Source of the DNA: an uncultured Bacteroidota bacterium
GTDB lineage: Bacteria; Bacteroidota; Bacteroidia; Flavobacteriales; Flavobacteriaceae
Direction of reading: 5' to 3'
DNA length: 37,954 nucleotides
Assembly (NCBI GenBank): GCA_902514615.1
Contig: CABXRG010000009.1
Coordinates: forward strand, 1-37,954
Under the pieces are notes generated by a model. The model was not told where the DNA came from. It did no database searches and saw nothing but the letters and a program-made list of their open reading frames with translations. The stretch's first letter is position 1. Every line of letters starts with the position of its first letter. The position numbers and the translations under genes were made by a program. Positions 25,059 to 37,954 of the stretch are shown one piece after another.

Positions 25059-25271
25059 TTATTCTGCTTTATTCATTCTATATATTTTCCATATTATCAA
25101 ACCAACTAATATATATGGGATAGACATTAAATAAACAATACCCCTATTTAATCCCTTGGCTGATTCATAGCCTTGATCAGTTTCCATGATAGCACTTAAC
25201 ATAGAGCACTGAGAGTTTACATCTAATGTTGAAAGTAAAAATAAAAGTCCAAGTAAATAGTATTTATTCAT
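25059..25271 (-). CDS. Small membrane protein at the end of the oxidase assembly cluster
   Basis: This 70-residue protein has an N-terminal signal-like segment (MNKYYLLGLLFLLSTLDVNS), a short polar loop with one Cys (QCSMLSAIMETDQG), the sequence GLNRGIVYLMSIPYILVGLII as a transmembrane helix, and a basic tail. The ATG at 25271 shares one base with the stop of the DUF420 gene (TAATG), so it is preferred over an upstream start that would lie inside that gene. From memory, flavobacteria have a similar small protein here, usually with a CxMC-like motif; the second Cys is Leu in this copy. Its role is unknown. Location suggests a part in oxidase assembly. Confidence 0.75.
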   Translation of the reverse strand: MNKYYLLGLLFLLSTLDVNSQCSMLSAIMETDQGYESAKGLNRGIVYLMSIPYILVGLIIWKIYRMNKAE

Positions 25272-25810
25272 TAGTGCACATAATAAGGTGAAATCATAAT
25301 ATAAACTACAACACCTGTTACAGCAATATAAAGCCATATTGGAAAAGTAATTCTAGCTATTTTTTTATGCTGATCAATCATTTTTGAAATGGCTCTAACA
25401 TAAGTAATAAGCACCATAGGAACTATAAATACAGAAAGAGTTATATGAGATATTAAAATAACAAAGTAAAAATATCTAATAAGCCCCTCTCCACCAAAAG
25501 GAGTTGGATCTGTTGTCATATGATAAAGAATATACATGACTAAGAATACTAATGATAAAAAAATTGACGTCTTCATTAATAATTCATGTTGTCTGATTTT
25601 TTTATTCTTTATACTATATAAAGCACTAAGCAACAATAAAGCTGTCAAGCCATTAATGGAGGCGTATATAGGTGGTAAAAAAGTTAATGCAGGTAGTGAT
25701 GTTATTCTTACGTTGAATAAGATTAATACTACTACAGGGATAAGTATTGAAACTATTACTATTAAAGTTTTATACTTAAGTCCATCATATATATCATTAA
25801 ACTTACTCAT
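25271..25810 (-). CDS. DUF420 membrane protein (YozB/CtaM-like)
   Basis: This 179-residue protein has five predicted transmembrane helices (near 14-32, 46-64, 79-96, 114-136 and 152-173) and conserved His residues in the loops and helices (RQHELLMKTS, YHMTTDP, LISHITLS, DQHKKIARITFPIWLY). This is the DUF420 pattern. A Gram-positive relative, CtaM/YozB, is needed for activity of heme A-type oxidases. A role in assembly or cofactor insertion for the oxidase encoded nearby is therefore likely but not proven. It overlaps the Sco gene upstream by 8 nt and the small gene downstream by 1 nt. Confidence 0.85.
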   Translation of the reverse strand: MSKFNDIYDGLKYKTLIVIVSILIPVVVLILFNVRITSLPALTFLPPIYASINGLTALLLLSALYSIKNKKIRQHELLMKTSIFLSLVFLVMYILYHMTTDPTPFGGEGLIRYFYFVILISHITLSVFIVPMVLITYVRAISKMIDQHKKIARITFPIWLYIAVTGVVVYIMISPYYVH

Positions 25811-26501
25811 TTATTAATTTTTTAATATCATAAAATAACATGTCTATACCTTGCTGAGTAGAGTTCAAATCATTAACTCCTAAATAATACATTATTGGAT
25901 TACCAAAAGCATCTTTTCTCGATCGAATATAACCATCTTTATCTATAAGTGCAAAATATCCTTGGTGTTCAAATCCGCCAATAAAATTGGAGTCTTGATT
26001 AGCAAAAATATTGAAACCGTTATTAGCAAGATCATATATATAATCTCTTTCTCCTGTTAAAAAATGCCAATTTTGCGATTTTATATTTAGTGCTTCAGAA
26101 TATTTTTTTAATGTAGACGGAGTATCATTTTTTGGGTCAATAGTTATAGATATAATTCCAAAATCATCAGAATCCCCAAATTTATCATCTAACAATTTCA
26201 TGTTTTCATTCATCTCAATACAAATATCAGGACATCTGGTGAAGAAAAATTCCAGAACATATACTTTATTATTCATGTCCTCATTAGAAATTAAAATTGA
26301 ATCCTGGTTAGTAAGAACAAAGTCAGGAGCTCTTCTCTTTTGATCTGAAATAGTTAAATAAGATAACCTCTCATTGCTATGAAGTCTATTAGAATCTGTA
26401 GTATCTAAATTAACGACTCTCTCATAAATTTTTGGGAAAGAAAAAATTCCAAAAAGGATTATGATTATTAATAATCCAATATATTTTGATTTATTATTCA
26501 T
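25803..26501 (-). CDS. SCO1/SenC-family copper chaperone for cytochrome oxidase
   Basis: This 232-residue protein has an N-terminal membrane anchor (YIGLLIIIILFGIFSFP) and a periplasmic thioredoxin fold. The copper site is complete: CPDIC (C90 and C94, CxxxC) after the EFFFTR strand, and the distant His in GFEHQGYF (H179). TIDPKNDTPSTLKKY is another Sco landmark. It should deliver copper to, or reduce, the CuA site of subunit II. An ATG five codons upstream (26516) is possible, but 26501 gives the 8-nt overlap seen repeatedly in this operon and places the anchor at the N-terminus. It is followed by DUF420 and preceded by a cysteine-free Sco-like paralogue. Confidence 0.93.
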   Translation of the reverse strand: MNNKSKYIGLLIIIILFGIFSFPKIYERVVNLDTTDSNRLHSNERLSYLTISDQKRRAPDFVLTNQDSILISNEDMNNKVYVLEFFFTRCPDICIEMNENMKLLDDKFGDSDDFGIISITIDPKNDTPSTLKKYSEALNIKSQNWHFLTGERDYIYDLANNGFNIFANQDSNFIGGFEHQGYFALIDKDGYIRSRKDAFGNPIMYYLGVNDLNSTQQGIDMLFYDIKKLINE

Positions 26502-27153
26502 TAAATAAGGAATCATTTTTCTTTAATGCCAACCTGTATTCAGCAAGAATAATCTTAACATCATCAACCATCTTGTTATTAATTTCTGCAACAGATTGTG
26601 AATTAAACCCATAAAGCATTTCAATATCTTCATCATCGTTCCTTCCTCTGAGACTAAGATCCCTGTCAATTATAAAAACATATGGTGTACTGTAGTTATC
26701 ATCAAGCTTAATATCTGTATTGAAGCTTTCAAAAATTGACTTAATATTTAATTGAGTAGTCGGAATAAAGTTCCATTTTTTTAAATCTGTACCAACCCCA
26801 CTGATAAGATCACTTTTTAAACTTTCAATTTCATTAGATTCATTTTCATTATAAATAATAACAAATTGAAAATCTTGAAACTCATAAAATCTTTTATAAA
26901 TTTTCTGATTTAAATTTAAAGCTTCTGATTTTTTATTTTTTATATCACCCCCCCAGAAGGCAACTATTGAGATTTTATCCTGAAAAGAAACTTGAAAAGT
27001 ATTTCCTTCAAGATCTTTAATATCTTCAACCTTTTCAGTTAATACAGGAAGCTTTGCAAAATTATTTATCCCAGTAGATAGAAACACATAAACAAATATT
27101 GGAAAGAAAAACAGGACACCAAGTATTAGATACTTTTTAAAATCTTTACTCAT
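26494..27153 (-). CDS. Cysteine-free Sco/thioredoxin-fold-like membrane-anchored protein
   Basis: This 219-residue protein has one N-terminal transmembrane helix (LILGVLFFFPIFVYVFLS) and a periplasmic domain whose strand order resembles Sco/thioredoxin: DLEGNTFQVSF, ISIVAFWGGD where CxxxC would be expected, FQFVIIYNENE, WNFIP, and TPYVFIIDRDLSLRGRND. It contains no Cys and no His at all, so it cannot bind copper or do redox chemistry in the Sco manner. The C-terminal helix NNKMVDDVKIILAEYRLAL looks strongly constrained. Its place between oxidase subunit IV and true Sco (1-nt and 8-nt overlaps) points to a structural or scaffold role in oxidase assembly (inference). I believe it is conserved in flavobacteria but uncharacterised. 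Confidence 0.78.
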   Translation of the reverse strand: MSKDFKKYLILGVLFFFPIFVYVFLSTGINNFAKLPVLTEKVEDIKDLEGNTFQVSFQDKISIVAFWGGDIKNKKSEALNLNQKIYKRFYEFQDFQFVIIYNENESNEIESLKSDLISGVGTDLKKWNFIPTTQLNIKSIFESFNTDIKLDDNYSTPYVFIIDRDLSLRGRNDDEDIEMLYGFNSQSVAEINNKMVDDVKIILAEYRLALKKNDSLFNE

Positions 27154-27536
27154 TAAATTTTCCAGGTCTTTAAGCCATCCAACATAACCTCAAAAATATA
27201 TGAGCCTTCTATTAATAAAATAAAAAGTAAGAATGGAATAAGTATTAGAAGAGGAACTACAATTGTATTCTTTAAAAAAGGTTTTTCATCTCTTACGTGC
27301 ATGAAATCCCAAGTAATATAATAAGCCTTAATTAAAGTCATGATAATGAATAGCCAATTAATAAGCTTAATGCCTAAAAAGTAATTTAATAGTACTGCAG
27401 GTTTCATTATACCTAGAGCTACTTCAATAACAGTTACTATTGATAAAAATATAAGAACACCCCATATCTTTTGAACATTAGACTTAAACTTTAGTCGTCC
27501 TCTAAAAATTTCTAATTTGTGATTGTGATCTGCCAT
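27153..27536 (-). CDS. Cytochrome c oxidase subunit IV-like protein
   Basis: This small 127-residue membrane protein has three transmembrane helices (about 24-42, 56-73 and 90-112). The loop FMHVRDEKPFLKN between the second and third is typical of the bacterial COX4/CyoD-like family. It begins with a His-containing polar stretch (MADHNHKLE). In prokaryotic heme-copper oxidases this subunit packs against subunits I and III and helps stability rather than catalysis. It starts 3 nt after the subunit III gene, and its stop overlaps the next ATG by 1 nt. Confidence 0.88.
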   Translation of the reverse strand: MADHNHKLEIFRGRLKFKSNVQKIWGVLIFLSIVTVIEVALGIMKPAVLLNYFLGIKLINWLFIIMTLIKAYYITWDFMHVRDEKPFLKNTIVVPLLILIPFLLFILLIEGSYIFEVMLDGLKTWKI

Positions 27537-27539
27537 AAT

Positions 27540-28517
27540 TTATACTAAATAGAAAAATGTAAATACAAAAACCCAGACTAAGTCAACAAAGTGCCAATAA
27601 AGACCAACTTTTTCAACCATATCATAATGACCTCTTTTTTCATACGTACCAAGAAGCACATTAATAAATATTATAATATTTATGATAACTCCAGAAAAAA
27701 CGTGAAAACCATGAAATCCAGTAATAAAAAAGAAGAAATCTGCAAAAAGAGGATTTCCATATTCATTACGTATTAGATTAGCACCTTTAACTACTCTAGT
27801 AGCTGAAGCAAGTTTAATCTCTGCTTCTTCTCGACTTAAAATTATTTTATGACCACTTTCATCTAATGCTTCTAGCCTTACGGTTAAATCTGTATCATTG
27901 TTAAACCCATCCATAACTTCATCAAGAGTAATTTCAGGTAATTTTGATTCGCTTTGATACCAAATACCAACGTTGTCATCATGAGTTACTCTATCCTGAG
28001 TTGAAGAAAATGCAAACTCATCAATTGGTATTCTCTTACCTTCTTCAAGGTTATAGAATTGTAGAATTTCTCCATTTTGAATTTCAACGGCCCCATATTC
28101 ACCTTTTATAAAATTTTTCCACTCCCATGCTTGAGAACCTACAAAAACTGCACCTCCAATAATAGTTAAAAGCATATAAAAAGCAACACGATTTTTATCA
28201 TTGTTATGACCTGCATCGACAGCTAAAACCATTGTAACAGATGAAAAAATTAACACAAATGTCATCAATGCAACATAATACATGGGAGCATCTATTCCAT
28301 GTAAAAATGGAAAGTGAGTGAAAACTTCATCAGCTATTGGCCAAGAATCAATATTTTTAAATCTTGAGAACCCATAAGAGACAAGGAAACCAGAAAAGGT
28401 AAGAGCATCCGAAACTATGAAAAACCACATCATTAGTTTTCCGTAAGCTGCGTCTAGCGGCTTAGCTCCTCCACCCCATGAATTTTGTTTTGTTTTTGTT
28501 AATGTAGATGCTTGCAT
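27540..28517 (-). CDS. Cytochrome c oxidase subunit III (long form with inserted domain)
   Basis: This 325-residue heme-copper oxidase subunit III has helices near 28-48, 77-98 and 111-133, then a hydrophilic insert of roughly 90 residues (about 143-240, with GKRIPIDEFAFSSTQDRVTH), and closing helices with ADFFFFITGFHGFHVFSGV and YWHFVDLVWVFVFTFFYLV. The GFHGFHV and WHFVDLVW motifs are the COX3 signatures. The insert lies between helices and probably faces the periplasm; long subunit III proteins are known in Bacteroidota. It is the second of two adjacent subunit III genes and has a candidate internal promoter before it. Confidence 0.92.
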   Translation of the reverse strand: MQASTLTKTKQNSWGGGAKPLDAAYGKLMMWFFIVSDALTFSGFLVSYGFSRFKNIDSWPIADEVFTHFPFLHGIDAPMYYVALMTFVLIFSSVTMVLAVDAGHNNDKNRVAFYMLLTIIGGAVFVGSQAWEWKNFIKGEYGAVEIQNGEILQFYNLEEGKRIPIDEFAFSSTQDRVTHDDNVGIWYQSESKLPEITLDEVMDGFNNDTDLTVRLEALDESGHKIILSREEAEIKLASATRVVKGANLIRNEYGNPLFADFFFFITGFHGFHVFSGVIINIIIFINVLLGTYEKRGHYDMVEKVGLYWHFVDLVWVFVFTFFYLV

Positions 28518-28550: not shown

Positions 28551-29165
28551 TTAACTGAAGTATTTAATAAAAAAGAATAAATATATCCATAAAGCTCCAA
28601 GAAAATGCCAGAATATTAATGCCATCTCAAAACCTAACTTGTTTTTCTCATATTTTTTTCTGTTAAACTTAGTAGTTACAACAGTTAAAACAATTATACC
28701 GGCTATCAAGTGAGCTAAATGAAGAAACACTAAAACATATATATATGACGTAGTTATAGAACTTTCTGGACCTGTAAAATAATATCCTTGTGCAATAATA
28801 TCACCAAAACCTAAAAACTGAGCAACTACAAAAACAATAGCCATAAGAATGGTTAGTCCAAGAAAAAGATTGACGTTGTTTCTATGTAAATAGATATTTA
28901 TATTTTCTGGAAGAGAAACTCTAATATATTGATCTAATCTATACTTAGCTATTTGAAAAAACAAACTACTTAATGCAATTGAAATAGTACTTATTGTAAA
29001 CCAAGTAGGTAAGCTAAAAGAGTCTAACCAATCGGGTCTAGAACTGCTAACTATATAAGCACTAGTTAAGCCAGCAAAAGTCATAGTAATACTTATTAGT
29101 CCAAACCATAGCATCATTCTTTTTGCTTTACTAGTTTTAACCTGAATTGAATCTGAAATACTCAT
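28551..29165 (-). CDS. Cytochrome c oxidase subunit III (short form)
   Basis: This 204-residue subunit III-family protein has five transmembrane helices (near 16-36, 54-72, 93-115, 136-157 and 179-200). It ends with FEMALIFWHFLGALWIYLFF, the COX3 WHF motif, and has VFLHLAHLIAGI in the fourth helix. It starts at the same base where ctaB ends (TAATG), so the two are translationally coupled. Having a short and a long subunit III gene side by side is a recurring flavobacterial arrangement as I recall it. Whether both sit in one complex is not known from sequence. Confidence 0.9.
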   Translation of the reverse strand: MSISDSIQVKTSKAKRMMLWFGLISITMTFAGLTSAYIVSSSRPDWLDSFSLPTWFTISTISIALSSLFFQIAKYRLDQYIRVSLPENINIYLHRNNVNLFLGLTILMAIVFVVAQFLGFGDIIAQGYYFTGPESSITTSYIYVLVFLHLAHLIAGIIVLTVVTTKFNRKKYEKNKLGFEMALIFWHFLGALWIYLFFFIKYFS

Positions 29166-30055
29166 TATGAAAGAAATTTATCTACTACAAATATAATTTG
29201 AATAAAACTTAAATAAAAAATACTTGTATACATAAGTCTTATAGCGTTTTGTTTATCCTTATATCTCATTAATCTAATGGCCTGGAATAACATAAAGAAA
29301 CCAGATGCTAAGATTAAAATAAGAGAATAAAGGCCAATTGAAAGATTTCCAGTAAAGCTAAAGTAAGGAAGAGTGGAAACTAAAATCATCCATAAAGTAT
29401 AAAAGACAATTTGAAAAGCAGTTGAGTTATCTCTTTTACCTGATGGCAACATTTTAAATCCAGCTTTTAAATAATCATCATGCGAAACCCAACCAATTGC
29501 CCAAAAATGTGGAAACTGCCAAAAAAATTGAATCATAAACAATATACCTGTCTCTATTGAAAATTTATTAGTCACTGCTACCCAACCCAACATAAAAGGG
29601 ATAGCACCAGGGATAGCACCAAAAAACACAGATAAGGGTGTGATTGGTTTCAAAGGAGTATATAATCCTAAATATATAATCATAGATATTAAACCAAAAA
29701 ATGCAGTTCTAAAATTTATAATATATAACATAGTCAACCCTAAAAAACTTAGGATTATACAAACAATTATTGCCTGTTTTACACTTAGACCTCCAGTAGG
29801 AAGTGGCCTATTTAGTGTACGAGTCATTAAAGCATCCCTTTTTCTTTCAATTATCTGATTAAAACCATTAGATGCACCAACAACAAAAAATCCACCAAAA
29901 ATTAACAACGCAAGTGTATAGAATGAAAATATATCAAAAGCAATCAAATACGAGGCAACAGAGGAAAATACTACACTTAAAGATAGCCTGTGTTTAATTA
30001 AAATAAGAATTTCAGAAAATAAGGACTTTGGCTTTATATATAAAGTATCAGACAT
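29165..30055 (-). CDS. ctaB: Protoheme IX farnesyltransferase (heme O synthase)
   Basis: CtaB (CyoE) adds a farnesyl group to heme B, giving heme O, the precursor of the heme A used by the oxidase. The 296-residue UbiA-family membrane protein has about nine helices. The first prenyl-diphosphate/Mg motif region is NGFNQIIERKRDALMTRT (about 63-80) followed by NRPLP. The YTPLKP segment and the second polar loop FWQFPHFWAIGWVSHDDY are also diagnostic. No heme A synthase (ctaA) gene is in the window, so it must lie elsewhere. It sits between tonB and the subunit III genes. Confidence 0.96.
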   Translation of the reverse strand: MSDTLYIKPKSLFSEILILIKHRLSLSVVFSSVASYLIAFDIFSFYTLALLIFGGFFVVGASNGFNQIIERKRDALMTRTLNRPLPTGGLSVKQAIIVCIILSFLGLTMLYIINFRTAFFGLISMIIYLGLYTPLKPITPLSVFFGAIPGAIPFMLGWVAVTNKFSIETGILFMIQFFWQFPHFWAIGWVSHDDYLKAGFKMLPSGKRDNSTAFQIVFYTLWMILVSTLPYFSFTGNLSIGLYSLILILASGFFMLFQAIRLMRYKDKQNAIRLMYTSIFYLSFIQIIFVVDKFLS

Positions 30056-30077: not shown

Positions 30078-30782
30078 CTATTGAAGTCTGAAAGTGATTG
30101 GAATACTAAATGGAACCTTCACAGGGGTACCTCTTTGTCTACCGGGGGTCATTCTAGGAAGTCTACCAATAATTCTAGCTGCTTCATTTTCGAGGTTTTT
30201 ATCTGGACCTCTCATACGTATGTTTGTAATTGAACCGTCTCGAGCTATAATAAAATTAACATATACTCTGCCTTGTATACCCATTTCTTGAGCAATATCA
30301 GGGTATCTAAAGTTTTTTCTTATATGCTTGTTCATTTGTTCTTGGAAGCAAGCTCTTCTTTGAGATTTAGCAACTGTTTCACACCCAGGAAAAATTGGAA
30401 CATCTTCAATTACTGCAAAAGGAACCTCAATATCATCAAAATCATCTTCTACAACTATATCTTCAATAACCATCTCTTCATCAGATTCTGTTGATTCAAT
30501 GACAGTTTCCTCTACTTCTTCTTCATCCTCAACAATTTCAATTACTTCCGGAGCAGGAGGTGGTGGAGGTGGAGGAGGAGGAGGTGTTTTTAACTGTTCA
30601 GTAATTGGAACATCCTCTTCATCATCTACTAGCATATCACCACTAGTAAGATCAATTTTTCTTTCATATGATTTATACTCAATAGCACCCCAAGTAAGAC
30701 CAAGCACACAAGTCAAACCAATAACAAAGTATAGATTTCTATTTTTGTTTAAGTCAGCTTCTGGATTTTTCTTTAGTTGCAT
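30078..30782 (-). CDS. Energy transducer TonB
   Basis: This 234-residue TonB protein couples the ExbBD proton motor to outer-membrane receptors such as the one at 1-2032. It has an N-terminal membrane anchor (about 17-33, LYFVIGLTCVLGLTWGAI), a run of ten prolines (67-76), a strongly acidic spacer (about 82-120) that spans the periplasm, and the C-terminal TonB domain (about 145-234) with HIRKNFRYPDIAQEMGIQGR and IPITFRLQ. The CETV and RRACF cysteines are frequent in the Bacteroidota form. It lies inside the split oxidase cluster, 22 nt upstream of where ctaB ends its own leader-free arrangement, facing the same way. Confidence 0.94.
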   Translation of the reverse strand: MQLKKNPEADLNKNRNLYFVIGLTCVLGLTWGAIEYKSYERKIDLTSGDMLVDDEEDVPITEQLKTPPPPPPPPPPAPEVIEIVEDEEEVEETVIESTESDEEMVIEDIVVEDDFDDIEVPFAVIEDVPIFPGCETVAKSQRRACFQEQMNKHIRKNFRYPDIAQEMGIQGRVYVNFIIARDGSITNIRMRGPDKNLENEAARIIGRLPRMTPGRQRGTPVKVPFSIPITFRLQ

Positions 30783-31239: not shown

Positions 31240-31821
31240 TTATAATTTATTTAATGATCTTTTAATTAATTCTTGAAGCTCTATATCTTTATTTTCAAAA
31301 TATACTTTACTTACGATTTTTTCAGATTTAGATTTATTAAAACCTAATACAGAAAGAGCCAATAAAGCCTCTTTTTTTATATCTAAATTTTCGGTTGATA
31401 AATCTATATCTTTTTTATCAAATAATTCAACTTTATCTTTCAATTCTATTATCAATCTTTGAGCTGTTTTTAAACCAATTCCTTTAATAGATTTTATTCT
31501 GTCAACATCTTCTGCCCATACTGCCTCTTGAATTTCTGTTGGAGAAATAGAAGACAAAATTGTTCTTGCAGTACTAGGTCCAATTCCAGATATTGATATT
31601 AATTGCTGAAAAATAGATCTTTCACTTTGGGAACTAAAACCAAATAAAACATCAGCATCTTCTTTTCTTTGGAGATAGGTGAAAATTTTAATGTTTTCAT
31701 CATCAGGAATTTTTTCAAAAGTGTTTAACGAAATATTAATTTCATAACCTATTCCATTTGATTCAACAATAATTTTTGTTGGTGATTTTTCTATTAATCT
31801 TCCTTTAATATAGGTTATCAT
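31240..31821 (-). CDS. ruvA: Holliday junction branch migration protein RuvA
   Basis: RuvA binds four-way DNA junctions as a tetramer and loads RuvB. The 193-residue protein has the N-terminal OB-fold (ITYIKGRLIEKSPTKIIVE, YEINIS), two helix-hairpin-helix motifs (SISGIGPSTARTILS, about 70-84, and KGIGLKTAQRLIIELKDK, about 113-130), and the flexible linker and C-terminal RuvB-contact domain (LALSVLGFNKSKSEKIV). Its ATG overlaps the maeB stop by 4 nt. ruvB lies on the far side of maeB, so the partners are encoded close by but not adjacent. Confidence 0.96.
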   Translation of the reverse strand: MITYIKGRLIEKSPTKIIVESNGIGYEINISLNTFEKIPDDENIKIFTYLQRKEDADVLFGFSSQSERSIFQQLISISGIGPSTARTILSSISPTEIQEAVWAEDVDRIKSIKGIGLKTAQRLIIELKDKVELFDKKDIDLSTENLDIKKEALLALSVLGFNKSKSEKIVSKVYFENKDIELQELIKRSLNKL

Positions 31822-34100
31822 TTGTTCTTAATTTTTCTTTGATTTGCATCTATAACCGATATAGCAGACATATTTACTATCTCATCAACAGATGCCCCTA
31901 GCTGAAGAATATGAATTGGTTGGTTTAACCCAATAAGAATAGGTCCAACAGAAACTGCATTATCAAGCTCTTTGATAGTTTTATATGTAATGTTTGCAGA
32001 ATCAAGATTTGGAAAAATAAAAGTATTTACTTTTTTTCCATTTAAAATTGAAAACGGGAATCTATTTTTTAACATTTCTCTGTTTAGAGCAAAATCTGAT
32101 TGAATAGGACCGTCTACAATTAACTCGGGATTATCTTCATGTAATATTTTGACTGCTTTAGATATTTTTTTTGCCTCATCAAAGTCAGAGGATCCAAAGT
32201 TAGAATATGAAAGAATTGCAATAACTGGTTTAATCCCAAACATATTTACAATTTTTGCAGTATTTATAGTGATTTTTGCAATTTCTTTATAAGATGGGTT
32301 AATATTCAAGGATGTATCTGAACAAAATAATGGTCCTTGTTTTGTTATCATTAAATTTGTAGCTGCAACTTTCTCAACATCTGGTGATTTTCCTATCGAA
32401 TTTATTAATGGGATAAAAACTGAAGGATAGCTTTTGGAATATCCAGATAACATACAGTCAGCATCACCATTTTCAACCATCATAGCTCCAAAATAATCTC
32501 TTCCTCTTAAAAGTCTCTTCACATCATCTAAAGTTTTACCTTTTCTTCTAAGTTTTTTAAATAAGGTTTGAGAATATTTATCAATCAAATCTTTATTTAT
32601 TTTATCTGTTGGATCAATAATCTGAAGATCTTCATTAAAATCTATAGATTCCATTAATTCTTCAATTATTTTTTTTCCACCTAATAAAATAGGTTCTGCT
32701 ATTTTCTCTTCGTAGCAAATTTGGGCAGCTTTTAAAACATCGAGATGATCTGCTTCAGTAAACACAAGTTTTTTCTCTTTTACTTTTCTAGCTCTTCTAT
32801 GAATAATTCTTATTAACTTCTGATTATTACCCAATCTCTCGTCTAATATTTGAGTGTATTTATCCCAATCTGTAATTGGTTCTTTTGCAACTCCTGATTT
32901 AATTGCAGCTTTAGCAACTGCAGGAGGAATTTCAGATATTAACCTAGGGTCAAAAGGTTTTGGAATAATATAATCTTTACCAAAATTTAGTTTTGTTTCG
33001 TCATAGGCTATATTAACTTGCTCTGGAACAGGCTTTTTAGCCAACTCGGCTAAAGCAATTACAGCAGCTTTTTTCATTTCTTCATTAATTTTTGTAGCTC
33101 TTACATCTAAAGCTCCTCTAAAAATAAATGGAAAACCAAGAACATTATTTACTTGATTTGGCAAGTCGGATCTCCCTGTTGCAAAAATTATATCATCTCT
33201 AACAGACATTGCCTTGTCATAGTTTATCTCAGGATCAGGATTAGCCATAGCAAAAACAATTGGATCATTAGACATGGTCTTTAGCATTTTCTTTGTTACA
33301 ATATTAGCCATGGATAAACCTATAAACACATCAGAATTAACCATAGCTTCTTCAAGGGTTTTTATGTCTCTATTTGTTGCAAAGTATTTTTTTTCTTTTG
33401 TAAGACCATCTCTTAAATTACTTATAACACCTTTACTATCAGTCATTACAATATTTTTAAGTTTTGCTCCAAATGATATATATAATTTTGTACATGCAAT
33501 TGCTGCAGCACCAGCACCTGAAACAACAATTTTTACATCTTCAATTTTTTTATCTACAAGTTCAAGAGCATTTAGTAAAGCTGCAGCTGATATGATTGCT
33601 GTTCCATGTTGATCATCATGCATGACAGGTATATCAAGCTGATTAACTAATTCTTTTTCAATTTTAAACGCTTCTGGAGCTTTTATATCTTCAAGATTTA
33701 TTCCTCCAAAAGTTGATGAAATTGATTTAACTACTTCAATAAACTTATCAGGATCTTTTTCATTTATTTCAATATCAAAAACATCGATGTCAGCAAAAAT
33801 TTTGAATAAAAGAGCTTTACCTTCCATGACAGGTTTTGAAGCATCGGGACCAATATCTCCTAGACCAAGGACAGCTGTACCGTTAGATATGACTGCAACT
33901 AAATTTGATTTATTTGTATACTTATATACATTAGAAGGATCCTTTTCTATTTCTTGACAAGGAATGGCAACTCCAGGAGAATATGCAATAGCTAAGTCTC
34001 TTTGTGAATTGTATTTTTTTGTTGGTACAACTTCAATTTTACCTGGTTTAGGTTTAGCATGATAAACTAGTGATTCTCTCCTTTCTCTATTCTTTCCCAT
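31818..34100 (-). CDS. maeB: NADP-dependent malic enzyme (MaeB, with phosphotransacetylase-like domain)
   Basis: This 760-residue enzyme oxidatively decarboxylates malate to pyruvate, producing NADPH. The malic domain (about 1-420) has AYSPGVAIPCQEI, VISNGTAVLGLGDIGP, metal-binding FDIEINEKDP, HDDQHGTAII and the dinucleotide loop GAGAAAIACTKLY. The C-terminal phosphotransacetylase-like domain (about 430-760) contains PILLGG, GRDYFGAMMVENGDADCMLSG and DGPIQSDFALN; in MaeB it is regulatory and binds acetyl-CoA rather than catalysing transfer. The length is normal for the hybrid form. It sits between ruvB and ruvA, overlapping ruvA by 4 nt, with its own candidate promoter 16 nt before the ATG. 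Confidence 0.96.
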   Translation of the reverse strand: MGKNRERRESLVYHAKPKPGKIEVVPTKKYNSQRDLAIAYSPGVAIPCQEIEKDPSNVYKYTNKSNLVAVISNGTAVLGLGDIGPDASKPVMEGKALLFKIFADIDVFDIEINEKDPDKFIEVVKSISSTFGGINLEDIKAPEAFKIEKELVNQLDIPVMHDDQHGTAIISAAALLNALELVDKKIEDVKIVVSGAGAAAIACTKLYISFGAKLKNIVMTDSKGVISNLRDGLTKEKKYFATNRDIKTLEEAMVNSDVFIGLSMANIVTKKMLKTMSNDPIVFAMANPDPEINYDKAMSVRDDIIFATGRSDLPNQVNNVLGFPFIFRGALDVRATKINEEMKKAAVIALAELAKKPVPEQVNIAYDETKLNFGKDYIIPKPFDPRLISEIPPAVAKAAIKSGVAKEPITDWDKYTQILDERLGNNQKLIRIIHRRARKVKEKKLVFTEADHLDVLKAAQICYEEKIAEPILLGGKKIIEELMESIDFNEDLQIIDPTDKINKDLIDKYSQTLFKKLRRKGKTLDDVKRLLRGRDYFGAMMVENGDADCMLSGYSKSYPSVFIPLINSIGKSPDVEKVAATNLMITKQGPLFCSDTSLNINPSYKEIAKITINTAKIVNMFGIKPVIAILSYSNFGSSDFDEAKKISKAVKILHEDNPELIVDGPIQSDFALNREMLKNRFPFSILNGKKVNTFIFPNLDSANITYKTIKELDNAVSVGPILIGLNQPIHILQLGASVDEIVNMSAISVIDANQRKIKNK

Positions 34101-34129: not shown

Positions 34130-35128
34130 TTAATTAAATAAATTATTCTGATTATTTTTATTTCTTCCCAAATGATTATATCCTTTTTCAGTGACTTGCC
34201 TCCCCCTTGGAGTTCTAATAATAAAGCCTTGCTGAACAAGAAATGGTTCATAGACCTCTTCTATAGTTTCTGTGTTCTCAGATAACGACGTTGCAAGTGT
34301 TGATATACCAACAGGTCCCCCATTATAATTATCAACTATTGTCCTTAATATTTTATTATCCATTTCATCTAATCCATTCTTATCAACATTCAACGAGGTT
34401 AGTGCAAATTTTGTAATTTCTAAATCAATTTTACCATTACTTTTTATTTGAGCAAAGTCTCGAACTCTTCTCAAAAGAGAGTTTGAAATTCGCGGAGTAC
34501 CTCGACTTCTTCTAGCTATTTCAAAACAAGATTTCTTATCTATCTCTAATTTTAAAATATCTGAACTTCTTTCTACAATTTCAGTTAACAATTTATCATC
34601 ATAGTGTTCAAGTCTGTTAGAAATTGCAAATCTTTCCCTCATCGGATTCGTCAAAAATCCTGACCTAGTTGTAGCACCTACAAGGGTAAAAGGATTTAAA
34701 TTTAACTGAACAGTTCTTGCATTTGGTCCAGATTCAATCATAATATCAATTTTATAATCTTCCATTGCAGAATAAAGATATTCTTCAATAATAGGACTTA
34801 GTCTATGGATTTCATCAATAAAAAGAATGTCTCTCTCTTCAAGATTTGTGAGAAGACCTGCTAAGTCACCCGGCTTATCAATTACAGGACCAGAAGTTAC
34901 TTTTAAACCAACTTTTAGTTCATTAGCCAAAATATGTGCTAATGTAGTCTTTCCTAATCCGGGTGGTCCATGAAATAATGTGTGATCTAATGCATCTTCT
35001 CTTTGATTAGAAGCTTCAACAAAGATTTTTAGGTTACTAATTATTGATTGTTGACCAATAAAGTCTTCAAAGCTAAGAGGTCTTAGTGCTTTATCAAAAT
35101 CATTGTCTCTTTCGTGATTAGTATCCAT
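34130..35128 (-). CDS. ruvB: Holliday junction branch migration ATPase RuvB
   Basis: RuvB forms hexameric AAA+ rings that drive branch migration with RuvA. The 332-residue protein shows Walker A HGPPGLGKTT (about 53-62), Walker B FIDEIHRL (about 103-110), sensor 1 in LVGATTRSGFLTNPMRERF, the sensor 2/arginine region RSRGTPRISNSLLRRVRDF, and the C-terminal winged helix (YNGGPVGISTLATSLSE, then QGFIIRTPRGR). It is complete. It follows the subunit I gene by 46 nt on the same strand and has its own TATATTTG element very close to the ATG. Confidence 0.97.
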   Translation of the reverse strand: MDTNHERDNDFDKALRPLSFEDFIGQQSIISNLKIFVEASNQREDALDHTLFHGPPGLGKTTLAHILANELKVGLKVTSGPVIDKPGDLAGLLTNLEERDILFIDEIHRLSPIIEEYLYSAMEDYKIDIMIESGPNARTVQLNLNPFTLVGATTRSGFLTNPMRERFAISNRLEHYDDKLLTEIVERSSDILKLEIDKKSCFEIARRSRGTPRISNSLLRRVRDFAQIKSNGKIDLEITKFALTSLNVDKNGLDEMDNKILRTIVDNYNGGPVGISTLATSLSENTETIEEVYEPFLVQQGFIIRTPRGRQVTEKGYNHLGRNKNNQNNLFN

Positions 35129-35174: not shown

Positions 35175-37034
35175 TTAATGTTGCAGCTCTTTTTCCCCTT
35201 TTTTTAAAGGAACATTTTGTGGAATAAAGTCTTCCTTAGATCCAGGTTTAGAGTAGTCATAAGGCCATCTAAATACATGAGGAATTTTACCAGGCCAATT
35301 ACCATGCATATGCTTAATTGGAGCTGTCCATTCTAAAGTGTTTGATTTCCATGGATTCTTCTCAGATTTTTTACCATAAAACATACTACTAATGAAATTA
35401 TATAAGAATACCAGTTGCGCGGCTCCGGCTAATAAGGCAAATAATGTAATAACTACATTTATATTTGCTACATCATCAAAATAAGGGAAATTAGTGTTTG
35501 TGTAATATCTTCTAGGCAGACCTGCCATTCCTACAAAGTGCATAGGAAAAAATACACCGTAAGCACTAATTGCTGTTATCCAAAAATGGATATAACCTAA
35601 ATTTTTATTCATCATTCTACCAAACATTCTTGGATACCAATGATACACTCCCGCAAATAATCCATAAAGAGCTGAAATACCCATTACTAAATGAAAATGA
35701 GCAACTACAAAATATGTATCATGTAAGTTTATATCCAGAGCACTGTCACCTAAAATTATACCAGTAAGCCCACCGGATATAAAAGTAGAAACAAGGCCTA
35801 TAGCAAACAACATACCAGGATTAAATTGAATATTACCTTTCCAAATAGTAGTTATATAATTAAAAGCTTTTACAGCTGACGGTATAGCTATCAGCAATGT
35901 AGTAAATGTAAAGACTGATCCTAGAAAAGGATTCATCCCAGTTATAAACATATGGTGACCCCAGACAATAGTTGATAAAAATGCAATAGCTAAAATTGAT
36001 CCAACCATAGCTCTATATCCAAAGATTGGTTTACGAGCATTAGTAGATATTACTTCTGATGCAATTCCTAAAGCTGGTAAAAGAACAATGTATACTTCGG
36101 GGTGTCCTAAAAACCAGAACAAGTGTTCAAAAAGAACAGGTGATCCTCCTTGATAGTGAAGCACCTCTCCTTGGATGAATATATCAGACAAGAAAAAAGA
36201 TGTCCCGAAACTCCTATCCATAATTAGTAAAAGTGCTGCAGATAAAAGAACTGGAAAAGATACAACTCCTATTATGGCAGTAACTAAAAAAGCCCAAATA
36301 GTTAAAGGTAATCTAGTCATTGTCATTCCCTCTGTTCTGAGGTTAAGAACAGTAACTATATAGTTCAGAGCAGCCAAAAGAGATGAAGCTATAAAAAGTG
36401 CCATTGATACTAACCAGAGTGTCATTCCAGCGGCTGATCCAGGCTGAGCTTGTGGAAGTGCACTTAGTGGTGGGTATATTGTCCAACCCGCAGCTGCAGG
36501 TCCTGCTTCAACAAAAAGTGATGCTATCATTACAGCAGATGAAAGAAAGAATAGCCAATATGAAATCATATTTAAGAATCCTGAAGCCATATCTCTTGCA
36601 CCAATTTGAAGTGGAATTAATAGGTTACTAAATGTTCCACTAAGTCCTGCTGTTAATACAAAAAACACCATAATAGTACCATGAATTGTAACTAGAGCTA
36701 AATATACATTTGGATCCATTACACCATCTGTCGCCCATTTTCCTAGAAGTACATCAAAAATACCGAATGACTCTTCTGGCCATGCTAGTTGAAGCCTAAA
36801 TAGTAAAGACATTGCAATACCAACTATACCCATAATAAGTCCAGTTATAAGGTATTGCTTTGAGATCATTTTATGATCTATACTGAAAATATATTTAGTA
36901 ATAAATGTTTCCTTATGATGGTGATCATGTCCATGATCGTCATGAGGTTCAACTATAATATCTTTTCTCTCAGTAACATCAACTTCGATATCTGTTCCAA
37001 CTATTTTTGCTCTACTGTTATTTTTTTGTGCCAT
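35175..37034 (-). CDS. ctaD: Cytochrome c oxidase subunit I
   Basis: This is the 619-residue catalytic subunit of an aa3-type heme-copper oxidase. The heme a ligands are H118 (VTIHGT) and H448. The CuB ligands are H311 in GHPEVY, whose Y315 would form the cross-link, plus H360/H361 in WGHHMF. The heme a3 ligand is H446 (VVAHFHLVMG). E313 in HPEV marks an A1-type D-channel. Twelve or more transmembrane helices follow a cytosolic N-terminus with a His/Asp-rich stretch (HDDHGHDHHH, 31-40). That stretch is common in Bacteroidota and might bind metal. It follows the subunit II gene by 12 nt. Genes for subunits III and IV lie 7 kb downstream, beyond ruvB to ctaB. Confidence 0.97.
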   Translation of the reverse strand: MAQKNNSRAKIVGTDIEVDVTERKDIIVEPHDDHGHDHHHKETFITKYIFSIDHKMISKQYLITGLIMGIVGIAMSLLFRLQLAWPEESFGIFDVLLGKWATDGVMDPNVYLALVTIHGTIMVFFVLTAGLSGTFSNLLIPLQIGARDMASGFLNMISYWLFFLSSAVMIASLFVEAGPAAAGWTIYPPLSALPQAQPGSAAGMTLWLVSMALFIASSLLAALNYIVTVLNLRTEGMTMTRLPLTIWAFLVTAIIGVVSFPVLLSAALLLIMDRSFGTSFFLSDIFIQGEVLHYQGGSPVLFEHLFWFLGHPEVYIVLLPALGIASEVISTNARKPIFGYRAMVGSILAIAFLSTIVWGHHMFITGMNPFLGSVFTFTTLLIAIPSAVKAFNYITTIWKGNIQFNPGMLFAIGLVSTFISGGLTGIILGDSALDINLHDTYFVVAHFHLVMGISALYGLFAGVYHWYPRMFGRMMNKNLGYIHFWITAISAYGVFFPMHFVGMAGLPRRYYTNTNFPYFDDVANINVVITLFALLAGAAQLVFLYNFISSMFYGKKSEKNPWKSNTLEWTAPIKHMHGNWPGKIPHVFRWPYDYSKPGSKEDFIPQNVPLKKGEKELQH

Positions 37035-37046
37035 ATTAGTCTTTGT

Positions 37047-37954
37047 CTATTGAACGAATTCTTTAAATGTTTGTTGTTCATCAATCCATTTATTAAAACT
37101 TTCTTCCGTCTCAACAATAATTTTCATTTGCATGTTGTAGTGTGACGCACCACATATTTTATTACATAAAAGTAAAAAATCAAATTCATATGGATCAAGA
37201 GGAAAATCACCACTTGCAACTAACTCTTCACTTTTATCAAATCTAATTTTATTAATTTTTTTAACCTTTTCAACAATTTCAGGTCTTAATCTCATATCCT
37301 GAGTTGTAACATTTGGAATAAAAGCAAACTGATTTATCATTCCTGGAACTGCATTCATTTGAGCTCTAAAGTGAGGCATAAAAGCAGAATGAATAACATC
37401 CTGAGATCTTATTCGAAAAACAACTTCACGATCAACAGGTAAATGAAGTTCTTGAACTACGATATCATCATCTCCATTTCTGTCAGTTGGATCAATTCCA
37501 ACTAAATTTTTTCCATCAAAATCTTGAAGAAATCTAACATTTGCATCTCCCAAAACGCCATCATCTCCAGCATATCTTGCTTTCCAATTAAATTGTTGAG
37601 CATAAAGTTCAATAACTAAAGCTTCCTCATTTTCTTCAATTGTCATAATGTCTACCCAAGTAAATAGTCCATAAAGAATTAAACCAGCTAAAGCTATAGT
37701 CGGAATTATTGTCCATATACCTTCCAAAAAGTTACTATCAGCAAAGAATAGTGCTTTTCTCTTTTTATTACCTCTATATTTAAAAGCAAAGTAGTGAAGT
37801 AAGGCTTGAGTAATTGTTTGAACAAAAAATATTACAGAAAATGAAAACCATAGAAGTTTATCATAATTTTCACCATGAACTGATGCTGATTCTGGAAGAA
37901 TTACATCCCCATATTGAAAAAATGAAAAAATGGTTAATGCATAAATAAATATCA
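37047..37954 (-). CDS. ctaC: Cytochrome c oxidase subunit II (5' end beyond window)
   Basis: The reading frame is open to the window edge, so about 302 C-terminal residues are visible and the true start lies outside. Two membrane helices (around QYGDVILPES, then LLWFSFSVIFFVQTITQAL and IWTIIPTIALAGLILYGLF) precede the cupredoxin domain. The CuA site is H in DVIHSAFMPHFRAQMNAVPG plus CNKICGASHYNM: two Cys, His and Met are present, but the usual Glu of CxExC is Lys, as in other Bacteroidota. There is no fused cytochrome c domain. It receives electrons from cytochrome c and passes them to subunit I, encoded 12 nt downstream. A start at the TTG at 37727 would remove both helices' lead-in and is not credible. 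Confidence 0.94.
   Translation of the reverse strand, partial: IFIYALTIFSFFQYGDVILPESASVHGENYDKLLWFSFSVIFFVQTITQALLHYFAFKYRGNKKRKALFFADSNFLEGIWTIIPTIALAGLILYGLFTWVDIMTIEENEEALVIELYAQQFNWKARYAGDDGVLGDANVRFLQDFDGKNLVGIDPTDRNGDDDIVVQELHLPVDREVVFRIRSQDVIHSAFMPHFRAQMNAVPGMINQFAFIPNVTTQDMRLRPEIVEKVKKINKIRFDKSEELVASGDFPLDPYEFDFLLLCNKICGASHYNMQMKIIVETEESFNKWIDEQQTFKEFVQ

Follow-up and report, generated by a model that had tools for sequence, protein, structure and literature searches.

The Sco homologue HCC2 (AtSCO2) of Arabidopsis lacks both the CxxxC motif and the His of the copper site, and it coexists with a complete Sco, HCC1. HCC2 is described as not needed for oxidase activity and as linked to UV-B stress (PMC3971200). 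According to a 2019 review, this ligand-free protein interacts with the metallochaperone module, and its activity without a copper site is called very surprising and a sign of a different role of Sco (PMC6696091). In a 2018 study, copper is not fully excluded for HCC2 on account of its remaining cysteines (PMC6307045). The Sco paralogues of Caulobacter are of the ordinary CxxxC type (PMC12617631).

No report of a copper-site-free bacterial Sco was found among the literature matches listed, which barely cover subscription papers. In the portions of text available, a review of bacterial oxidase assembly proteins contains neither "Bacteroid" nor "Flavobacter" and describes no protein of this kind (PMC9145763), a copper-gene survey of Bizionia argentinensis names only Scos with a copper-binding site (PMC11213822), the F. 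johnsoniae ACIII paper contains neither "sco" nor "subunit iv" (PMC8552683), and the whole word "Sco" is absent from PMC7435645.

Here, we analyzed a window, i.e., a whole stretch of 37,954 nucleotides from a contig of an uncultured member of Flavobacteriaceae, which encodes a copper-site-free Sco paralogue (hereafter PSC). Proteins of this kind are made by marine flavobacteria next to the copper-delivering Sco of their respiratory oxidase. An earlier, sequence-only reading of this DNA had presented the role of the protein as not described. This holds for bacteria among the matches listed; however, plant HCC2 is a Sco without a copper site (PMC3971200). By its features, HCC2 is the nearest described case: as with HCC2, a Sco homologue free of CxxxC and His is found together with a complete Sco in the same cell. 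The differences are that HCC2 is mitochondrial and has five other cysteines (same source), whereas PSC is Cys-free and occupies a fixed slot in an oxidase cluster.

PSC resembles the SCO1/SenC proteins (PF02630), e.g., BsSco (YpmQ) of Bacillus subtilis, in its fold, its single anchor, its place in an oxidase operon and its full-length homology; unlike them, it has neither the CxxxC motif nor the copper His and lies below PF02630 detection, and its tail extends past the chain ends of BsSco and 4hde in the structural alignment. With the single-copy operon Sco of other Bacteroidia it shares the slot between subunit IV and DUF420, a similar anchor, the juxtamembrane stretch and the tail, but that Sco carries CxxxC and His, and PSC carries neither. 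The thioredoxin-like reductases TlpA and ResA are similar in fold class, periplasmic location and the link to oxidase or cytochrome biogenesis (PMC9145763); their redox Cys pair is absent from PSC, and ResA and TlpA chains stand below BsSco in the Foldseek ranking for the PSC model.

Oxidase gene cluster and fold of PSC

The features of PSC and of the surrounding cluster are as follows, with the evidence in parentheses:

26494-27153, minus strand: PSC, copper-site-free Sco paralogue, 219 aa (ORF reading; fold, homology to Sco)
27076-27147, minus strand: predicted N-terminal membrane helix of PSC, residues 3-26 (AF2 helix)
27046-27075, minus strand: juxtamembrane TGINNFAKLP, residues 27-36 (conserved columns; faces IQGKHNFAHLP in alignment)
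26929-26958, minus strand: FWGGDIKNKK, residues 66-75 (aligned opposite FFFTS and the CxxxC loop of Sco)
26683-26703, minus strand: residues 151-157, region of the copper His of Sco, without His in PSC (alignment)
26626-26652, minus strand: LRGRNDDED loop, residues 168-176 (family alignment A1)
26518-26580, minus strand: C-terminal helix and tail NNKMVDDVKIILAEYRLALKK, residues 192-212 (alignments, AF2)
25803-26516, minus strand: partner Sco with CPDIC and distal His (PF02630, E 6.2e-26)
25271-25810, minus strand: DUF420 protein, CtaM family (PF04238, E 1.1e-43)
27153-27536, minus strand: oxidase subunit IV, COX4_pro (PF03626, E 5.4e-11)
27540-28517, minus strand: oxidase subunit III (PF00510, E 6.9e-13)
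28551-29165, minus strand: second subunit III-like protein (PF00510, E 1.7e-6)
29165-30055, minus strand: UbiA-family prenyltransferase (PF01040, E 2.8e-54)
35175-37034, minus strand: oxidase subunit I (phmmer vs PDB, 1ar1_A, E 1.7e-118)
37047-37952, minus strand: oxidase subunit II, CuA motif CNKICGASHYNM, 5' end beyond the window

All cluster genes between 25271 and 30055 lie on the minus strand, with subunits I and II further upstream on the same strand, and PSC is located between subunit IV and the CPDIC Sco. The UbiA-family gene is probably that of haem O synthase, CtaB; DUF420 has been linked to CtaM (PMC9145763). The stop codon of subunit IV and the start codon of PSC have one base in common (TAATG), and PSC and the partner Sco overlap by 8 nt if the likely start of the latter (26501, 232 aa) is taken, or by 23 nt with the first ATG. 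These overlaps, together with the constant gene order described below, support coupling with the oxidase. This is in line with the translationally coupled position proposed in the sequence-only reading, and the neighbor that it took for a complete Sco does have CPDIC and a later His. In the genome of the window, a 1.03 Mb assembly that is ~81% complete, this adjacent Sco is the sole PF02630 match.

PSC is an intact frame of 219 codons with 0 Cys and 0 His, in agreement with the anchored product described earlier. Its AF2 model, built on an 18-row alignment (mean pLDDT 83.5, pTM 0.74), consists of one membrane-type helix, followed by a thioredoxin-type alpha/beta domain and a last long helix (residues 188-217). 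As in Sco, there is a predicted hydrophobic anchor helix (residues 3-26), which, judging from its hydrophobic residues, is presumably located in the membrane. In the Foldseek comparison, BsSco was first for the PSC model (1xzo, E 4.6e-6), and the top three matches were BsSco chains, 1xzo and 1on4. By VIA, the best match was Sco 4hde (Z 14.5, 152 residues, 2.8 A), followed by Sco 1xzo (Z 13.2) and human GPX8 (Z 12.4), the last of which is tied with 1xzo by the VIA rule, but not with 4hde; peroxiredoxins and other thioredoxin-fold proteins came after GPX8. The predicted fold agrees with the Sco/thioredoxin-like fold that had been proposed, and an unrelated fold, which had been named as a refutation, did not occur.

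Homology of PSC to Sco is clear from profile comparison. The hhalign alignment of the PSC family with single-copy operon Scos has E 3.7e-41 and spans 215 columns, anchor and tail included; the alignment with partner Scos is weaker (E 1.1e-14), and the family profile A1 picks up the adjacent Sco in genome G123 (E 3.0e-6). Searches of Pfam, NCBIfam and PDB sequences with the single PSC protein as the query gave no match, PSC did not reach the PF02630 cut-off, and a comparison of 18 PSC members at E <= 1 gave matches to 16 families in total, none of them PF02630. PSC is of Sco descent, yet it is not a Sco by the defining ligands. The one PDB match of the family profile, a phage tail adaptor (E 0.094), is weak and was taken as chance.

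In the profile alignment, FWGGD stands opposite FFFTS, the lead-in to CxxxC, and the ligand positions of Sco correspond in PSC to a gap or I71 and to K74 or K75. It had been stated that FWGGD replaces CxxxC: the copper site is indeed gone, but the residues that FWGGD faces are those in front of the motif. Both old ligand positions are variable in the family, with L, I, P, D, M, E, V, F and others at the first and K, R, Q, S, T and others at the second. Neither CxxC nor CxxxC occurs in any of the 60 complete family members; 53 of the 60 have no Cys and 24 have neither Cys nor His, where L025 was counted with an upstream extension that contains its sole Cys. At the aligned column of the distal copper His, there is no His in any of the 27 members of the PSC clade. 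It should be noted that the absence of Cys and His from the whole protein is a weak signal by itself, considering that 5 of the 35 ORFs picked in the window, PSC among them, have neither residue and that 24 of the 60 family members lack both. The signal beyond chance comes from the loss at the ligand positions (0/60 for CxxC or CxxxC) combined with conservation of the protein (dN/dS 0.070, see below).

Conservation of PSC and the tandem pair

A search of 60 genomes near the window gave PSC homologues in 45, the genome of the window being one of these; homologues were also found at 54 named loci, including those of Arenibacter, Robertkochia and Ulvibacterium. At E <= 1e-10, a family match is present in 189 of 199 Flavobacteriaceae genomes, a number that counts family matches and not genomes read one by one for Cys; among good genomes the count is 159 of 164, and 188 of the 198 genera sampled have matches. 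The remaining ten genomes, five of them good, have no family match, so PSC is not strictly universal in Flavobacteriaceae. A CP[DST]IC Sco lies no more than 900 nt downstream of PSC in 52 of the 54 named loci, and the two exceptions run off the contig edge; ten near-window loci (the window itself and same-genus loci) were left out of this reading of downstream genes. The order PSC, Sco, DUF420 is the same in all 38 parsed Flavobacteriaceae loci, from 30 genomes.

For 17 sequences of the window's genus, the median amino-acid identity of PSC is 0.83, and the median dN/dS is 0.070 (116 usable pairs of 136), compared to 0.076 for the partner Sco, 0.061 for DUF420 and 0.045 for subunit IV; these values are rough because dS is high (median 1.37). 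The dN/dS estimates indicate that strong purifying selection acts on PSC as it does on the neighboring Sco, and to call PSC a degenerate partner, as the sequence-only reading did, is thus misleading. Several non-catalytic patches are conserved in the family alignments, namely GxNNF..LP, NLNQKIYKRF, LRGRxDDED and NNKMxDDVKxILAEYRxAxKK, with LRGR invariant in family alignment A1; such patches fit a binding protein. The alignment across flavobacteria that had been suggested as a check thus yields conserved columns, including the NNKMxDDVK stretch, and poor conservation across oxidase clusters, the other outcome named as a refutation, is not what we found.

Most loci outside a group of Flavobacteriales have one Sco, with CxxxC and His, between subunit IV and DUF420. 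In this usual single form, the Sco of other Bacteroidia combines a membrane anchor with a thioredoxin domain that bears CxxxC and His; a GxxNF..LP stretch often follows the anchor, and there is usually a tail at the C-terminus. In Flavobacteriaceae and four other families of the order (f10, f12, f13 and part of f15), the slot contains a ligand-free Sco followed by a CxxxC Sco. In a tree of 79 of the 102 sequences, the ligand-free copies form one group (96/91) and the partners form another (99/93), with sub-groups alike in the two; such mirrored groups are the pattern expected from one tandem duplication.

Comparing PSC, single Scos and partner Scos, we counted a tail of at least 9 residues past the helix turn that ends partner Scos in 27/27, 38/43 and 1/27 sequences, respectively, the tails of single Scos being variable; the His ligand in 0/27, 43/43 and 27/27; and the juxtamembrane GxxNF pattern, which is loose, in 17/27, 24/43 and 1/27. 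Because the three classes were defined by the Cys motif, only these counts of His, tail and juxtamembrane pattern are independent. The tandem pair partitions Sco: PSC keeps the anchor and the tail, and the partner keeps the ligands, without the tail. In the window itself, the tail NNKMVDDVKIILAEYRLALKK is kept in PSC and lost from the partner Sco, and a TGINNFAKLP-type juxtamembrane stretch is common to PSC and many single-copy operon Scos. As a separate observation, the single operon CxxxC Scos at L157 (f11) and L170 (f15) contain a Cys-rich, zinc-ribbon-like insert before the C-terminal YDGT.

Ligand-free Scos in other families

A wider survey of 80 regions (one of them an empty filler), together with the earlier loci, revealed ligand-free Scos in the slot in further families of Bacteroidia: f29, f30, f37, f42, f44, f49, f50, f55, f60, f64, f65 and f82, the matches in f30 and f49 being weak. 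The Sco model was matched weakly (32-48 bits) by L261, L304 and L305. DUF420-only loci (e.g., L128, L139, L159-L164, L263, L264 and L266) were counted in neither direction. A tandem of a ligand-free Sco followed by a CxxxC Sco is found outside the order as well, in f43 (L287, L288, L289 and L318), and could be convergent or stem from an old shared duplication; the tandem loci L296 and L297 of f35 are ambiguous and were left out of the ligand-free tandem count.

In a quick tree made without the ligand columns, the ligand state changes at least 8 times by parsimony, with 5 changes forced by well-supported branches. This tree contains 122 of the 174 sequences, near-copies and sequences of up to 185 aa (including ligand-free L261 and L277) having been dropped; consequently, of the 53 sequences that do not have both aligned Cys, 36 are in the tree. 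For these 36 ligand-free rows taken together, a single origin is rejected (p-AU 1.5e-7). One clade for 29 of the 36 (f1, f10, f12, f13, f15, f29, f42 except L281, f43, f44, f49 and f60) is not rejected (p-AU 0.84), and the tree constrained to it scored 29.65 log units better than the free quick tree. Thus, the number of independent ligand losses is uncertain, and the argument from repeated loss is weakened by a possible shared origin. PSC may go back to the same origin as most of the ligand-free rows outside Flavobacteriales, and the deeper ligand-free cases may represent one old paralogue or result from long-branch attraction.

A subunit II with the CuA motif is encoded in each of the 12 genomes tested, including 7 in which a ligand-free Sco is alone in the slot. 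Of the 22 genomes found with such a lone ligand-free Sco, 20 have a CxxxC Sco elsewhere, the two exceptions (G152 and G286) being 88% complete; the count is 19/19 if only genomes at least 90% complete are taken. Of 20 control genomes, whose slot Sco has CxxxC, 13 contain a further strong PF02630 match (E < 1e-15) and 7 do not; for 19/19 against 13/20, Fisher p is 0.008, in a test that takes no account of kinship between genomes. These counts suggest that ligand loss in the slot is tolerated where another Sco can carry copper, while the slot protein itself is retained.

Possible roles of PSC

A structural role in oxidase assembly would be the best interpretation of PSC. We consider it somewhat probable that PSC is a Sco paralogue devoid of copper and thiol chemistry that keeps the parts by which Sco is held at the site of oxidase assembly. 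The retained parts would presumably serve as surfaces by which PSC holds apo subunit II, subunit IV or Sco while CuA is assembled. PSC would thus be an assembly factor and use its anchor, LRGR loop and C-terminal helix to dock on apo subunit II, perhaps via subunit IV or other subunits; once docked, it would position or stabilize the CuA domain and recruit the ligand-bearing Sco encoded next to it, with which it may form a heterodimer, and the recruited Sco would perform copper delivery or thiol reduction. No fusion of PSC to an oxidase gene or to Sco was found among the 1,085 ORFs matching the models.

The chief rival reading, plausible but unlikely in our estimate, is that PSC is no assembly factor but stays bound to the periplasmic face of the oxidase as an accessory subunit, serving stability or the docking of the electron donor complex. 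Ligands would not be required for such a subunit, the order of subunit III, subunit IV and slot Sco is observed in most loci that are long enough, and the long conserved C-terminal helix and charged loop of PSC are consistent with it; however, the downstream neighbors, Sco and DUF420/CtaM, are assembly factors and not subunits. The PSC family profile matched no relevant solved chain in the PDB, a comparison that is empty because the subunit IV of the window likewise matches no chain. Less likely, and on the whole improbable, is a function in redox homeostasis or stress signaling, as proposed for plant HCC2, with PSC merely co-expressed with the oxidase. COX activity does not depend on HCC2, which has neither CxxxC nor His and protects against UV-B (PMC3971200); HCC2 also partly rescues a yeast sco2 sod1 double mutant exposed to oxidative stress (PMC6307045). 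Nevertheless, PSC has no Cys at all, compared to five in HCC2, and in the parsed Flavobacteriaceae loci it always stands by subunit IV, Sco and DUF420.

We give still less credence to the suggestion that PSC binds metal through Asp/Glu or the backbone at the old site, or through the acidic DDED loop. This loop is nearly invariant (D174 at >=90% in one family alignment; D174 invariant, with E175 and D176 at >=90%, in the second), but a similar acidic loop is found in CxxxC Scos, and the old ligand positions are variable. That PSC is a decaying duplicate on its way to loss appears hardly credible: the copper ligands are gone and branches are longer in the ligand-free group than in the partner group, yet a dN/dS of 0.07, matches in 188 of 198 genera and the invariant columns speak against decay, which purifying selection already contradicts.

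Returning to the docking of a copper-free Sco, a broader proposal, which we make tentatively and hold slightly more doubtful than doubtless, is that Sco has two separable functions that have been pulled apart more than once in Bacteroidota: a copper half, with CxxxC and His and the tail lost, and a copper-free docking half, with the anchor, juxtamembrane stretch and tail and the ligands lost. This second half would be required for building the CuA oxidase, and nearly all Flavobacteriaceae have it. If true, there is a copper-free job for the Sco fold in oxidase building. PSC stands beside its copper-bearing twin in a fixed operon, in a bacterial family that includes tractable members, and because, unlike HCC2, it contains neither Cys nor His, a copper-free function of Sco can be tested here without the ambiguity of remaining cysteines. 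Tools exist for F. johnsoniae (PMC8552683). In view of the ligand losses, Sco-like genes from oxidase operons of Bacteroidota should be annotated as copper chaperones only after their ligands have been checked.

Several neighboring genes of the window were recorded along with the cluster. Right behind DUF420, an ORF of 92 aa (25059-25337, minus strand) with a Cys-rich start and a hydrophobic stretch is possibly another small oxidase-linked gene. Upstream of the UbiA-family gene, between it and what we take to be a GcvH-like gene, lies a presumably TonB-like protein with a long proline run (30078-30782, minus strand). Further on, the genes at 31240-31821 and 34130-35128 (both minus strand), which we assume from their sequences to be RuvA-like and RuvB-like, respectively, are separated by a presumably malic-enzyme-like gene (31818-34100, minus strand).
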